Assembly: GCF_038806765.1 (NCBI RefSeq)
Contig: NZ_CP152389.1
Span: 4,278,001-4,342,000, forward strand
DNA from: Mucilaginibacter sp. CSA2-8R
GTDB taxonomy: Bacteria > Bacteroidota > Bacteroidia > Sphingobacteriales > Sphingobacteriaceae
Direction of reading: 5' to 3'
DNA: 64,000 nt
Below, piece by piece: positions 39,171-44,564 of this stretch (position 1 is the first letter of the stretch; each line of letters opens with the position of its first letter). The position numbers and the translations under genes were made by a program. Under the pieces are notes generated by a model. That model was not told where the DNA came from. It worked only from the letters and a program-made list of their open reading frames with translations, and searched no databases.

Positions 39171-39545
39171 ATGCCAAAAAGAATAATGATAGCCGATGAC
39201 GATCCGGGGATTGTTGACGCGGTGGAAATGATTTTAGATTTTCATGGGTACACAGTTTCTTCTACCTATAATGCTACCGACTTACTGACTATTCGGCCAA
39301 ATCAATATCCTGATCTTTTGATTTTAGACATCTGGATGCCAGGATGCGACGGCCGTGATATATGCAGGCAACTGAAGATGCAGGATGAAACCCGCCAGAT
39401 ACCCATACTGATGATATCTGCCAGCAAAGACATCAGCGCATCTGCGCTTGAAGCCGGTGCAGATGACTTTTTAGCTAAACCTTTTGACATGCAAGATCTC
39501 ATTAGCAAGATTGAAATGCTGACCTGTGAACCGGCTGAAGTTTGA
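39171..39545 (+). CDS. Stand-alone response regulator receiver protein
   Basis: A 124-residue CheY-like domain without output module. Phospho-acceptor D53 in LLILDIWMPG, acidic pocket D9-D11, Thr/Ser switch in LMISAS and Lys103 in LAKPFD are intact. No kinase is adjacent. Probably a diffusible relay partner for a hybrid kinase elsewhere. Has its own promoter box. Confidence 0.92.
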   Translation: MPKRIMIADDDPGIVDAVEMILDFHGYTVSSTYNATDLLTIRPNQYPDLLILDIWMPGCDGRDICRQLKMQDETRQIPILMISASKDISASALEAGADDFLAKPFDMQDLISKIEMLTCEPAEV

Positions 39546-39829: not shown

Positions 39830-40195
39830 ATGCTCAAAAAAATATTGGTATTGGATGACAACATGGACATACTCGAAGTAGTTCATGAAGTACTTACCTA
39901 TGAGCATTTTGAGGTAAACAGCACCTCCGATAGCAAAAACATTGTTACCGTAGCCGAAAACTACCGGCCTGATCTCATCATTCTTGATTATAAGCTGATG
40001 GATGATAACGGTGGCGAAATTTGCCGCAGAATTAAATCGCATCATCAATTGCACAAAACTCCGGTCATCATTTTTTCTGCCTACACCAACAAAACCGATT
40101 TTTACAGTTTTGGATGCGACGCCGTGATTGCCAAGCCCTTTGACTTAACTGAGCTGATTGACACCGTTAATAGTTGCCTGCAATTAAGCCTTTAG
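39830..40195 (+). CDS. Stand-alone response regulator receiver protein
   Basis: A 121-residue CheY-like protein. D53 in LIILDYKLMDDNG is the phospho-acceptor, with D9/D10 in the pocket, FSAY switch and Lys102 in IAKPFD. Compared with the neighbour at 39171 it is clearly related but not a recent copy. Own promoter; convergent with the large barrel gene. Confidence 0.92.
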   Translation: MLKKILVLDDNMDILEVVHEVLTYEHFEVNSTSDSKNIVTVAENYRPDLIILDYKLMDDNGGEICRRIKSHHQLHKTPVIIFSAYTNKTDFYSFGCDAVIAKPFDLTELIDTVNSCLQLSL

Positions 40196-40266: not shown

Positions 40267-42867
40267 TTAAAAACGGTATCCCAAATTCACGTATACGAAA
40301 TGCCCTTCAGTAGACCGCCCGTAAGTAGCCTGAATCAAAAACAGCTCCGCAGGCAGTATAAAAATACCACCGCCATAGCCATCGTGCCATTTAGAGGATG
40401 ATTCGCCAGGTGTCCAAACCCGGCCAACATCATTAAAACCTATTACGCCGAATGTCCCCGGGAACAGGTAAGCATTAAAATCAAATAGTTTTAACCGGGC
40501 CTCAATGTTATTGTACAACATGCTTTTACCGGTAAATCGCCAGGTACGGAAGCCGCGCAGATTATCAGTACCACCCAATTTTAACTGCTGAAAATAATCT
40601 GCCTTACCAAAAGTAGTTCCTCCGCCAAAACGGGCTGCTAATACAAAAACAGAATCTCGGTCGGGATTTAAGTAAAAACTAAATTCACTTTGCAATTGAC
40701 TATACCGGCGGTTTTGCCCGTTAATTTGCTGCAAACCAGTAAGGGTAGTGTTCCAATACACCCCTTTTGTTGTTACCACCTGGTTATCGCGGGTGTCCAC
40801 TTCGGCACCGGTAACCAAACCGGCATATACTTTACTGCCAAACACATTCTCGCCTGGGTTCTGCGAATCGTAGATGGCTAAATACCGGTTTGCGTTTTCG
40901 GAGCCATTGGCATAATAAAATTGCCCGGTAATGCCCCCGCTTACTTTAACCTTACCGTAGGTGTGCGCTAAACGGGCATCGCCATAAACAAAATCATACC
41001 TGTTACGAAAAAACTGAATCCGGCTCTTGTCTTTATCGTCGTCGTCATCATTTTTAAAAAAGGTTTCGTTACCCACGCCAAAAAAGTTACTGATGTTGTG
41101 CGGACCACGGGAAGTAATTTTAATTAATAAGTCGTTATTACCAATAAGCCCCTTAAAATCGGCATTGTAATTAATCCTGAATGATTGCCGGCCAAATGCA
41201 TAACTGCCCAAAATTTCCTGACGCCACTCGTAAGGGCTTTTACGAAACCCTTGTTTAGTGTAAGCGTAACCCAGCGTTAAGATAACACCGTAGTCATTAT
41301 TATACCGCGCTGATATAATAGGCTCGGGCTGGTCATATTGAAAGTTTTTACGGTCGTAAGCAGTTATAGTGCTATCTGTTCCAGTCTTAATTTTAGCCTG
41401 GCTCCTTTTTGGAAAAACGTTGGATTCATCCTTACGGTCATAAATGTATAAATTGTGCTTATCATCTACGTTAGGGCTTACGGAGTAAGTATCAACTCCT
41501 GGCGCGCCAATCATTCGTATCTTAATAGGCGATTTGCCCGAACCGGTTACCTCATACCTGTCGCCGCCACCAAAACCATACACCCGTAAATCATGCGTAA
41601 CTTTGGGGTCAAACACCCGCTTGTAAACTTCGCGGCCTAAGCTATTGTCTTTTTTAATGTTGCGCACGGTCAGGCTAACCTTACCGCTGTCAAGCAGTTT
41701 AACATCAATCTGCTCATTTTTTTCGCTGGCAGGCACGTCAACCTGGCCTGATATAAAACGGTAATACTCCAACCCCTGCTTGCTCATGTTATTACGCCGA
41801 GCAATAGCTGTAGCGATGATCTTTTTACCAGATATTGCAAATATTTGCCTGGGCATCTTACGCACAGCCCGGGATATCACATCATCAGTTAAATGTGTTT
41901 GTACATATTGTATTTGTTCTTTCCAATCGTCTTCGTTTAAATCATTTAAAAAATAGCGGTCAAAGTACCTGCCGTTAAAGTTCCATTCGCCTATGCTCCT
42001 AATTTCATTTTCATAAGGCTGAAATTTTGCCTTTAAAAACTGGTGCGCCACTATCCAAGGCAATACACCCGAGGTTTTATAATAAACCTGGTCGCGGTCG
42101 CGGGGTATAGGCGTGTAAATCGTTTCTTTATTGGTTTTATCTTTATCCCAACGCCACTGGTCGTCGTGGCGGTCCCAATCGCCAATAATCATATCCAGCA
42201 ACCGTGCACGCAGCACCAGTTTGCTGTCTACTCGCACATCATTATCTTCACGCTGTTTTTTTTGTACCTTTTTGGTATTATCCGTTTTTTCAGACTCTAA
42301 AGGTTCGCGCTCTTCAAAAAGGTAAACACTATTTTTGTAATCTTTTCTAAACTGACCTAAAACGGGATCGTCGCCTACGTAAACTATTTCGGGATTGGAG
42401 TGAGGGATTTCCAAGGCATCGGCCATGACAGGCACAGTTAATGAGGCAAACGGGTTTGCCGTACTGGTTTGGTCCTGGATGATGGCCTTAGCCAAACCCT
42501 TGCGCAAATTAGGTGGCAACACCCTCTCAGGATATTTCTGTACAGAGCGCAGCACCCATTCCTGCCCGGTTTTATCAACCAGGCGCAAAGATTTGGTTTG
42601 CATACCGCCACCCTTTTCCTCTACTTTCAGGCCGCCTTTTTCCTGCGCTAATTTGATGATACGTACTTTAACCGGCGTTGCCCACTCTTTACGGTAATTG
42701 CTACCCAGCATTAAGCGGTGAAAGCCATTTACGTGGTTGTATTCCGGTTCAATGGCTACAGTAATACTGTCGGCCGCTTTTTTGGCCTGGCTGTACGTAG
42801 CCAGTGGCAGCAAACCCATTACGGCCACTATATTTATAAAAGTAACACAATGTTTTTTTAAGAGCAT
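40267..42867 (-). CDS. Kinase-like domain fused to an outer-membrane beta-barrel
   Basis: An 866-residue exported protein. After a signal peptide (cleavage near SQA) residues about 60-320 look like an atypical kinase fold: a glycine-rich loop (KGGGMQTKSLRL, 85-96), GQEWVLRSV (101-109), a hinge-like VYLFEERE (181-188), the catalytic-like GDWDRHDDQW (229-238) and a metal-binding-like TPIPRDRDQ (252-260), reminiscent of HipA/FAM20/CotH-type enzymes. Residues about 520-866 form a BamA/D15-type barrel ending in Phe. Homologues are common in Bacteroidota and usually labelled only as surface antigen. Enzyme activity is an inference. Confidence 0.75.
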   Translation of the reverse strand: MLLKKHCVTFINIVAVMGLLPLATYSQAKKAADSITVAIEPEYNHVNGFHRLMLGSNYRKEWATPVKVRIIKLAQEKGGLKVEEKGGGMQTKSLRLVDKTGQEWVLRSVQKYPERVLPPNLRKGLAKAIIQDQTSTANPFASLTVPVMADALEIPHSNPEIVYVGDDPVLGQFRKDYKNSVYLFEEREPLESEKTDNTKKVQKKQREDNDVRVDSKLVLRARLLDMIIGDWDRHDDQWRWDKDKTNKETIYTPIPRDRDQVYYKTSGVLPWIVAHQFLKAKFQPYENEIRSIGEWNFNGRYFDRYFLNDLNEDDWKEQIQYVQTHLTDDVISRAVRKMPRQIFAISGKKIIATAIARRNNMSKQGLEYYRFISGQVDVPASEKNEQIDVKLLDSGKVSLTVRNIKKDNSLGREVYKRVFDPKVTHDLRVYGFGGGDRYEVTGSGKSPIKIRMIGAPGVDTYSVSPNVDDKHNLYIYDRKDESNVFPKRSQAKIKTGTDSTITAYDRKNFQYDQPEPIISARYNNDYGVILTLGYAYTKQGFRKSPYEWRQEILGSYAFGRQSFRINYNADFKGLIGNNDLLIKITSRGPHNISNFFGVGNETFFKNDDDDDKDKSRIQFFRNRYDFVYGDARLAHTYGKVKVSGGITGQFYYANGSENANRYLAIYDSQNPGENVFGSKVYAGLVTGAEVDTRDNQVVTTKGVYWNTTLTGLQQINGQNRRYSQLQSEFSFYLNPDRDSVFVLAARFGGGTTFGKADYFQQLKLGGTDNLRGFRTWRFTGKSMLYNNIEARLKLFDFNAYLFPGTFGVIGFNDVGRVWTPGESSSKWHDGYGGGIFILPAELFLIQATYGRSTEGHFVYVNLGYRF

Positions 42868-43145
42868 CGAGATATAATTGGCTGGTTGTTAAGTGTGAAA
42901 ATGTGAACCGCCCTTGAATGTAAGCTATAACACAAATTTGATACTTTTGTGCGAACCACAGCGCACTTCGTCTATAATTTTTATCCACAGCGTTAAGGGT
43001 AGTTTACGATTTTTTACTCTTGTTAGTTCTACATTGGTTACACCATTAATTAATTGAGAGCAACATTTAGTAAATTTAGATATAAGCTTGACTGATTGAA
43101 CCTTTGTTAATTAGCAAGATTAGCAAAAAACACCCGGAATTATTA

Positions 43146-44564
43146 ATGCTACAAAAAAAACGAACCCTATTTTACCTGGTTGATGGCGCACACAGTGAGA
43201 TCATGCCCGAACTGATAAATCAGGGGTTGCTGCCTAATATTAAAAGAATTATAGACGAGGGTACGTACCGTAAGGCTACAACCTGCTTCCCGTCTACCAC
43301 CGGCCCTGCTTATTTACCTTTTTTAACCGGACACTTCCCGGGCACCATGGGCATTACCGGCATCCGCTGGTTTGACAAAACGGAGTTTAAACGAACCCGG
43401 TGGAATAAAAATGCCATGCGCTCTTATTGCGGCCCCGAGGCTGCCTGGTTTAATACCGATATGCCGGCTGATAAGCCTACACTGTTTGAACTCATGGGCG
43501 AATCGTATAATTTGTATAACATGATTACCCGCAATGTGCCTGACGAATACGACTTAGGTAAAAAAGGTAAAGGTTGGCTATACACCCGTGCCCATTTCTT
43601 AAAAAGACACCATCCGGTTGATTTGCAGGGCCATCAGCGTATCATGAACATGCTGCACTCAGGCAAAGATTTTGATTTTTTATTTGCCGTTTTCCCGAGC
43701 GTAGATTGGGACTCACATTACCACCATGTACATGATTTACGCACTATTGAAGCTTATAAAATTGTGGATGACAGTTTGGGCGAAGTAAGAGCCCTGCTGG
43801 AGAAAAAGGGTTGGTGGAATGATACGTTATTTATTCTGACTTCCGACCATGGTCTTACCCCTACTACCCAACATTTAGATTTGGGCGACTGGATGACCAA
43901 TAACGGACTCAAGTCGGTTTACTATCCTACCATCTGGAAAAGCAATCCCAAATCGGCCGTAATGATCTCCGGTAACTCGTTTGGCAGCATTCATCTGCTT
44001 AACCATGATGGCGACCATGTTTTGCGCGAACGCGAAATATTAACAACCATGGGGTCGTCTCGCCTGGAAAGTTTAATTGCAGAAAAGGCAGTAGATTTTG
44101 CCATATACCGCGGTGATGAAGCGCAAAGTTACATAGTACATAATGCGGTAGGCAAAGCTACGGTAAGGGTTACCGGAGATACGTTTAGCTATGACCCGGA
44201 AAGCGCTGACCCGCTCAAATTAGGAAATAATATCAGGGCCGTGGGGCACCGCGAAGCTTTAGAAGCAACATTTGATAGTGAATATCCAGATTCATTATAC
44301 CAAATTCATCAGCTATTCAGGAGTCGCAGAGCGGGCGATATTGTGGTAAGCGCCCGTGTGGGCCATGATCTTCGAGACTTTTGGGAATACCCGGAGCACT
44401 TAGGTTCACATGGTTCGCTGCACCGCTCACATATGCATGTACCGCTTGTTTACAATCAGAAAAACTGGCACACTCACTCAGCCCGTACTGCCGACTTATT
44501 TAACAGCATTCTGAAATGGAAAGACATCTTTCCGAAAAGCTCTGAGGGCGAGGCTTTATATTGA
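43146..44564 (+). CDS. Alkaline phosphatase superfamily phosphodiesterase
   Basis: A 472-residue hydrolase of the nucleotide pyrophosphatase/phosphodiesterase type. Metal and nucleophile sites are readable: YLVDGAH (Asp), FPSTTGPAY (Thr nucleophile), SVDWDSHYHH and LTSDHGLTP (Asp-His pair), and GSHGSLHRSHMHVP near the end. No signal peptide is evident, so it is probably cytosolic, or the N-terminus is misplaced. ATG 43146 is preferred over the TTG at 43104. Substrate unknown; related proteins cleave phosphodiesters or phosphonoacetate. Confidence 0.85.
   Translation: MLQKKRTLFYLVDGAHSEIMPELINQGLLPNIKRIIDEGTYRKATTCFPSTTGPAYLPFLTGHFPGTMGITGIRWFDKTEFKRTRWNKNAMRSYCGPEAAWFNTDMPADKPTLFELMGESYNLYNMITRNVPDEYDLGKKGKGWLYTRAHFLKRHHPVDLQGHQRIMNMLHSGKDFDFLFAVFPSVDWDSHYHHVHDLRTIEAYKIVDDSLGEVRALLEKKGWWNDTLFILTSDHGLTPTTQHLDLGDWMTNNGLKSVYYPTIWKSNPKSAVMISGNSFGSIHLLNHDGDHVLREREILTTMGSSRLESLIAEKAVDFAIYRGDEAQSYIVHNAVGKATVRVTGDTFSYDPESADPLKLGNNIRAVGHREALEATFDSEYPDSLYQIHQLFRSRRAGDIVVSARVGHDLRDFWEYPEHLGSHGSLHRSHMHVPLVYNQKNWHTHSARTADLFNSILKWKDIFPKSSEGEALY

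Follow-up and report, generated by a model that had tools for sequence, protein, structure and literature searches.

Within a 64,000-nucleotide stretch of the genome of Mucilaginibacter sp. CSA2-8R (NCBI RefSeq assembly GCF_038806765.1, contig NZ_CP152389.1, positions 4,278,001 to 4,342,000 of the forward strand; hereafter the window), open reading frame analysis finds a gene on the minus strand at 40267-42867 that runs from an ATG start and encodes a protein of 866 amino acids (aa). We propose that this protein belongs to the protein-kinase-like (PKL) superfamily and acts as a phosphotransferase outside the cytoplasm, anchored in the outer membrane, a reading to which we would give slightly better than an even chance. 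The domain architecture, the predicted fold, the conservation of the catalytic and metal-ligand residues and the linkage of the gene family to particular neighbours were established by computation. An earlier note, made from the letters of the window, had suggested an atypical kinase-like domain fused to an outer-membrane barrel, and it is this suggestion that is followed up here.

Predicted Kinase Fold and Its Nearest Matches

Residues 30-425 were modelled with AlphaFold2 from a narrow alignment (A1) of 72 rows, consisting of the window protein and its counterparts in 71 of 80 related loci, and the model reached a predicted local distance difference test score (pLDDT) of 89.9 and a predicted template-modelling score (pTM) of 0.90. 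At E<=0.001, Foldseek searching of the PDB gave six matches, namely CtkA (twice, and at the top), RIO2, PI4KIIalpha (twice) and CotH. These matches were looked at a second time with VIA-align, for which the tool's own note gives a best Z of 7 to 8 as typical of models that have no clear match. The best match was PI4KIIbeta (9hhm; Z 14.6, root-mean-square deviation (rmsd) 4.0, 245 residues aligned), accompanied by CotH (5jd9; Z 13.5, rmsd 4.0, 242 aligned), CtkA (3akk; Z 13.1, rmsd 4.6, 240 aligned), HipA (4pu3; Z 10.9, rmsd 4.5, 215 aligned), HipT (Z 10.6, rmsd 4.2, 208 aligned) and a Golgi casein kinase (4kqa; Z 10.3, rmsd 5.1, 234 aligned) that we take to be of the FAM20 type. All 50 VIA-align matches listed are kinase-fold proteins or complexes containing one; the titles of some (HipA, HipT, LepB, mTORC1, Mec1, 4uwh and 6i3u) are silent on this. 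LepB is termed a kinase in one report (PMC9758233). From these matches the domain of the window protein is predicted to have the two-lobe fold of the PKL superfamily, as had been proposed, and not a fold unrelated to kinases. The likeness to HipA, FAM20 and CotH that the earlier note had drawn holds among the structural matches and fails at the level of sequence, where none of the three gives a significant match; the closest structural matches also include the type II phosphatidylinositol 4-kinases (PI4KII) and CtkA. The former (9hhm, 4pla) are eukaryotic lipid kinases that, for all their structural score, show 10-14 % identity in the matches listed and were not retrieved by sequence profiles.

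Direct membership in the HipA, CotH or FAM20 families was rejected at the sequence level. CotH (PF08757) does not match the window protein at E<=10, HipA_C (PF07804) does not match it either, neither profile finds a match in its own genome, and no FAM20C family appears for the window protein at E<=10. A match of PF06453 (LT-IIB) to residues 90-133 (E 0.12, or 0.023 for a fragment) lies below the cut-off, occurs in one of 72 members and was judged to be due to chance. The profiles nonetheless align the putative active site with those of known kinases. Searched against PDB sequences with HMMER, the A1 profile finds CtkA first (E 0.05, not significant) and lays WDRHDDQW on FDRHNGNW, so that the DRHxxN of CtkA is aligned with DRHxxQ here; a wide profile of 82 rows (A4) likewise aligns CtkA on the catalytic loop. 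For hhalign, the targets were alignments of CotH and HipA (25 proteins each) plus 16 control families of neighbouring genes, and among these 18 families CotH ranks first for both the narrow and the wide query and HipA second for the wide one. Both queries place the catalytic loop and 'PRDRD' on the loop and the 'WDxN' of CotH, with D257 on the Asp of that motif, and the 'NxDDHxxN' of HipA falls on the catalytic loop with the wide query only. The predicted fold and the CtkA, CotH and HipA profile comparisons together support remote homology, and not membership.

Conservation of the Putative Active Site

Two sets of relatives were considered. Across 81 aligned sequences (the 80 related loci and the window), no variation is seen at E185, D230-W240 or P255-D259 (81/81), a result that was set aside because WDRHDDQW had itself served among the retrieval patterns. 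The second set, of 53 rows, came from whole-domain searches of genomes and not from motif retrieval. It was drawn from the 114 places listed and is non-random, combining top-ranked loci with 20 stretches picked as stand-alone or divergent forms; it represents 56 profile matches less the window gene (L083) and two duplicates (L090 and L096) of rows in L121 and L132. Here E185 is kept in 52 of the 53 rows, D230 in 50, D132 in 49, K111 in 48, Q237 in 47, D257 in 46, D232 in 45, R107 and D259 in 44 each and H234 in 41, and within the glycine loop G86 and G87 are each kept in 45 and G88 in 34; position 235 is variable. Conservation of D232, H234, D257 and D259, which the earlier note had named as a check, is seen in most of these rows. 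D232, Q/N237, D257, D259 and D/N230 are all kept together in 41 rows, each of which also has H234, and the window protein itself retains the catalytic Asp and the metal-ligand set. When all 396 columns are ordered by conservation, degenerate rows included, the catalytic positions come 13th to 54th.

The Outer-Membrane Barrel

In Pfam and NCBIfam scans only the Omp85 part of the window protein rises above noise. PF01103 matches residues 639-849 (E 2.7e-7; 30.8 bits against a cut-off of 24), and the NCBIfam Omp85_fam model scores 113.2 bits, beneath its cut-off of 200. A model of residues 375-866, built from a 62-row alignment (pLDDT 91.9, pTM 0.84), contains a nearly all-beta domain followed by sixteen strands (counted by eye), and the top structural matches of the barrel are BamA and TamA, BamA being the best. 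The BamA/D15 barrel proposed for this region is therefore confirmed by a family match and a predicted structure alike. No POTRA domain was seen, the model of residues 375-866 having no POTRA helices and the Pfam scan of the window protein no POTRA profile.

Proposed Mechanism, Objections and Alternatives

The proposed mechanism begins with a Sec signal, read by inspection of the sequence, that would take the protein across the inner membrane, and with the C-terminal Omp85 barrel, which would anchor it in the outer membrane, the kinase-fold domain perhaps facing the periplasm rather than the surface. The kinase-fold domain may bind a nucleotide or another phosphate donor between its lobes, and catalytic D232, with Q237 and D257/D259 binding metal, could then transfer a phosphoryl (or nucleotidyl) group to an envelope protein, lipid or glycan. 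The parts given to R107 or K111, D132 and E185, and the choice between D257 and D259, are likewise putative. The phosphate might be removed or recycled by the purple-acid-type phosphatase that most relatives carry in the same polypeptide, a part that is missing in the window protein. If the domain is active, a major bacterial phylum would possess regulated phosphorylation at its outer membrane, and the question would arise of which phosphate donor serves there. Extracytoplasmic phosphorylation in these bacteria also becomes directly testable by means of one point mutant.

Several points weigh against this reading. No Pfam kinase family matches the window protein at E<=10, and of the 31 Pfam families matched by the 72 members, the 25 displayed include no kinase family, CotH, HipA_C or FAM20C. 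The hhalign probability to CotH is 2.6 % with the narrow query and 21.1 % with the wide one, and that to HipA 0.25 % and 3.6 %, the narrow query placing HipA sixth, beneath four controls and out of register. The A4 profile puts CtkA second (E 0.35, not significant), behind a non-kinase at 0.26. Foldseek template-modelling (TM) scores by query length are only 0.31-0.40 for the top six matches, with rmsd 8-12, and EF-Tu, a clear non-kinase, stands at rank 41 among the 50 Foldseek matches listed. What matches the kinases is a predicted model, and a fold by itself does not demonstrate activity. The strand's basic residue is an Arg (R107), and a Gln (Q237) stands where a metal-ligand Asn would be expected. 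Neither the periplasm nor the cell exterior is expected to contain ATP, and in 12 of the 53 relatives the active site is partly lost. The fold inference of the earlier note stands; the catalytic claim stays a prediction.

Some of these points would suit a non-catalytic pseudokinase, that is, a ligand-binding or scaffold domain serving as a sensor of some phosphate compound or as a docking site for partners beneath the barrel: its compartment is one in which no donor is expected, and ten of the 12 degenerate relatives are of kinase-plus-barrel length. In two of the 12 (one each in L119 and L120) S-R-R replaces D-R-H and the second motif is kept, and in the other ten H234 is lost together with D257, D259 or both, although D232 and Q237 survive in four of the ten. 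Concerted loss of this kind is what pseudokinases would show. It also fits, however, a site that is normally under selection, as do the retention of all active-site residues in the other 41 rows (19 of at least 1150 aa, 12 of 850-1000 and 10 of 400-600) and the high rank of the catalytic positions despite the degenerate rows. The long, phosphatase-bearing length class holds none of the 12. Judged by its sequences, the group resembles an active family from which pseudokinases have branched off, and a pseudokinase is for the window protein an unlikely explanation, if the best of the alternatives. One locus (L122:4476-9690) carries tandem kinase-barrel genes, the first with a degenerate and the second with an intact active site.

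It is less likely again that a kinase fold here moves some other group in a nucleotide-dependent reaction, for instance in AMPylation, UMPylation or glutamylation. SelO and SidJ are atypical members of the kinase superfamily that carry out other group transfers, and such a role would accord with the lack of any matching named kinase family, with the weak profile similarity and with Q237 and R107, both unusual for a kinase. However, the D-R-H and D-x-D pattern aligns with that of the phosphotransferases CtkA and CotH. Least probable of all, in our estimate quite improbable, is a role in secretion or assembly like that of type Vd PlpD or of BamA, with the enzyme as a surface-displayed or released passenger of the Omp85 barrel. 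In its favour, N-terminal enzymes on Omp85 barrels have precedents such as PlpD (PMC4104836), and BamA and TamA are the barrel's structural matches. Against it, PlpD possesses a POTRA domain (PMC4104836) and none was seen in the window protein, and forms of kinase length without a barrel exist. The idea concerns location and is compatible with a kinase.

Relatives and the Phosphatase Domain

Of 247 genomes sampled from the phylum of the window, which we take to be Bacteroidota, 90 carry the family, and it spans 17 taxonomic families in this sample. At the 114 places listed, 69 frames are at least 1150 aa long, 33 are 850-1000 and 12 are 400-600, so that by frame length most relatives (69/114) could hold an N-terminal purple-acid-type phosphatase; more than 300 residues precede the kinase-fold domain in 63 of the 80 related loci. 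PF00149 lies N-terminally in all three long relatives scanned, above cut-off in two, and a profile built from 33 of the 63 N-termini matches purple acid phosphatases/TRAP type 5 at E 1.3e-8 to 5e-7 (1ute, 1.3e-8; 1war, 3.1e-8) and also glideosome-associated protein 50 (E 9.3e-9), the phosphatase match being best over the domain's final third. At six ligand positions chosen from purple-acid-phosphatase motifs, the metal ligands are kept in 47 of 63 phosphatase domains and not in 16, and in the motif-biased set all 16 relatives whose phosphatase lost ligands have an intact kinase motif. Examples of ligand-losing phosphatases are those of L033, L038, L042, L045, L043, L073 and L074, and nine share three identical changes. 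The combination of a kinase-fold domain with a phosphatase suggests that these bacteria may both attach phosphate and take it off again in a place where no ATP would be expected.

The window protein is without PF00149 or any phosphatase part in the Pfam scan, and its own-genome paralogue, of 876 aa, lacks one judging by length. The sole match of the relatives' phosphatase profile in the same genome (G000:C1:3751795-3752076; L185:5793-6770) is a protein of 325 aa with a twin-arginine-like N-terminus, encoded elsewhere on the chromosome. A natural split form occurs in one genome (G055; L121:5051-9094), where the kinase-fold domain, the phosphatase and the barrel are each encoded by a gene of their own, the three lying side by side on one strand. 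The kinase-fold protein (545 aa) is lipoprotein-like, the phosphatase (403 aa) is of TRAP type with PF00149 above cut-off, and the barrel (395 aa) has PF01103 above cut-off. More generally, 11 of the 12 barrel-less kinase frames have, by eye, a hydrophobic, signal-peptide-like or lipoprotein-like start. L113-L117 begin with a hydrophobic segment, L118 with a signal-peptide-like stretch, the frame of L119 at 7391 is ambiguous, and five frames (in L119, L120 and L121) look lipoprotein-like, a simple lipobox pattern matching three of them. In the five shortest stand-alone relatives (L113-L117) the profile match ends at position 351-357 of 402.

Comparison with Known Systems

CotH (5jd9/5jda) is like the window protein in its predicted kinase fold and, at the low probabilities given above, scores best of the 18 families in profile-profile comparison, with catalytic loop and metal motif in register; we know of no CotH fused to a barrel or a phosphatase; nor, to our knowledge, is CtkA, HipA or HipT fused to an outer-membrane barrel. 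The FAM20-type kinases, which are alike in fold, are animal proteins that act outside the cytosol. Within the kinase-like superfamily we regard the present proteins as a new family, and their architecture as new too. No description of the kinase-fold domain was found in searches of an open-access library, and the family is not described in the accessible parts of PMC9758233 or PMC10281475. A Riemerella metallophosphoesterase is listed as a type IX secretion effector in a review table (PMC10202324), and a report showing a phosphate-starvation regulon in Flavobacterium (PMC8115612) mentions no barrel-phosphatase in its accessible parts.

The statement that family members had been treated only as surface antigens is inexact. 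Heinz et al. (2014) named ten Omp85/TpsB subfamilies, one of them, 'Metallo', with PF00149; its domain was called a metalloprotease, proteolytic quality control or virulence was proposed as its role, and it was said to be conserved at genus level only (PMC4104836). The words kinase and phosphatase are absent from the main text of that paper. Since 'Metallo' combines PF00149 with a barrel, as most relatives do here, and stands outside that paper's list of POTRA subfamilies, it is probably the same family, a match of composition rather than of compared sequences. In contrast to the genus-level conservation given there, the present family spans 17 taxonomic families, and the window protein differs from 'Metallo' in having no N-terminal PF00149. 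If the two are the same, then even an inactive kinase-fold domain would have been overlooked in that subfamily, and its other domain would be of phosphatase fold and not a protease.

Gene Neighbourhood

Neighbouring proteins were clustered around the 80 loci and the window, the names resting on Pfam scans of one or two representatives. A lipoprotein-like, SdiA-regulated protein (cluster C, with a Phytase-like match beneath its cut-off) occurs in 50 of the 81 loci and lies directly upstream on the same strand in 43, at a median gap of 5 bases over 44 pairs. An HD-domain protein with a PycTM domain (cluster B) occurs in 54 loci, a protein of ~785 aa with weak GAF matches (cluster D) in 31, polyphosphate kinase 1 (PPK1; cluster E) in 25 and a class III nucleotide cyclase (cluster H) in 12, and 64 loci have one or more of these. 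No Pfam family is above cut-off in the two proteins of cluster D that were scanned; by eye, members of this cluster (L006:2498-4873 and L017:8584-10950) show class III nucleotide cyclase-like motifs. PADLOC matches its PycTM models to cluster B and its PycC models to cyclase H. A Pycsar defence reading was considered and set aside: PADLOC finds nothing in the two barrel proteins scanned, and the cyclase is present in only 12 loci. A possible role of HD-PycTM on the chromosome, distinct from phage defence, seems to merit attention.

The loci being taxonomically uneven, the neighbourhood was recounted by family searches in each genome. This covered 80 of the 90 positive genomes (without G124, G238, G014, G067, G193, G153, G078, G031, G184 and G241), and nine of the ten left out carry degenerate active sites, so the linkage percentages could drop. 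A PycTM gene lies within 5 kb of the family gene in 55 of 80 genomes and 13 of 17 families; its frame is at least 380 aa, the length of HD-PycTM, in 39 of the 55 genomes (8 families) and at most 301 aa in 16. For PPK1 the counts are 9 of 80 genomes (5 families) at up to 5 kb and 25 of 80 (7 families) at up to 15 kb; at the wider distance, chance alone would give roughly one pair or fewer under uniform placement on 4.3 Mb with kinship ignored. Of these 25 genomes, 15 belong to one family, with PPK1 at 11-14 kb. Two genomes (G072 and G166) have two copies of the family gene each, with a PPK1 copy within 8 kb of each. The window locus has none of these neighbours (SdiA-regulated, PycTM, GAF-like, PPK1 or cyclase); in its own genome PPK1 and PycTM stand together near 0.89 Mb and a second PPK1 at 3.53 Mb, the family copies being at 4.32 and 4.73 Mb.

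Because the genes are often near polyphosphate kinase, with the paired copies in two genomes, polyphosphate is a candidate donor, which is a guess. The fullest form of the proposal would be an outer-membrane 'writer-eraser' of Bacteroidota in which the kinase and the purple-acid-type phosphatase, whether fused or encoded side by side, modify molecules of the envelope outside the cytoplasm, use a donor other than cytosolic ATP and are coupled to the PycTM protein as an inner-membrane partner, and this we regard as distinctly doubtful. Should the phosphotransferase be active, it would tie outer-membrane phosphorylation to polyphosphate and to a Pycsar-type effector gene.

Features of the Gene and Its Surroundings

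The features of the gene are collected in Table 1. The triple glycine, LFEERE, GDWDRHDDQW and PIPRDRDQ are all found at the residues where they had been reported, and their conservation shows that they did not arise by chance. R107 sits, in the predicted model, in the strand preceding the first long helix.

Table 1. Features of the 866-aa protein and its gene, with positions in the window and the basis of each assignment.
Feature	Position	Strand	Basis
Whole gene: signal peptide, predicted kinase-fold domain, all-beta linker domain, 16-strand Omp85 barrel (866 aa)	40267..42867	-	
Putative signal peptide region, residues 1 to ~28	42784..42867	-	Sec-type, by inspection of sequence
Predicted kinase-fold domain, residues 30 to ~380 (model spans 30-425)	41728..42780	-	AlphaFold2, Foldseek, VIA-align
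Glycine-rich loop G86-G88 (GGG), between two N-lobe strands	42604..42612	-	Conservation; strand-loop-strand in model
R107 to K111, candidate nucleotide-binding basic residue	42535..42549	-	Conservation; putative role
D132, in the next helix, candidate partner of the basic residue	42472..42474	-	Position from model; putative role
Hinge-like LFEERE, residues 183-188	42304..42321	-	E185 close to strand end in model; putative role
Catalytic-loop-like GDWDRHDDQW, residues 229-238	42154..42183	-	HMMER/hhalign alignment and conservation
Metal-binding-like PIPRDRDQ, residues 253-260	42088..42111	-	Conservation and hhalign
Linker domain, ~residues 375-496, almost wholly beta, without the helix pattern of POTRA	41380..41745	-	Model
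Predicted 16-strand Omp85/BamA-like beta-barrel, ~residues 497-866	40270..41379	-	PF01103, model, Foldseek

The gene is solitary on its strand, the flanking genes at 39830-40195 and 43104-44564 both being on the plus strand. The latter is divergent and encodes a PF01663 phosphodiesterase/nucleotide pyrophosphatase, kept near the family gene in 5 of the 81 loci, namely four from Mucilaginibacter and the window. Just downstream, at 39171-39545 and 39830-40195, lie two single-domain CheY-like receivers, identified by eye, which carry no output domain.

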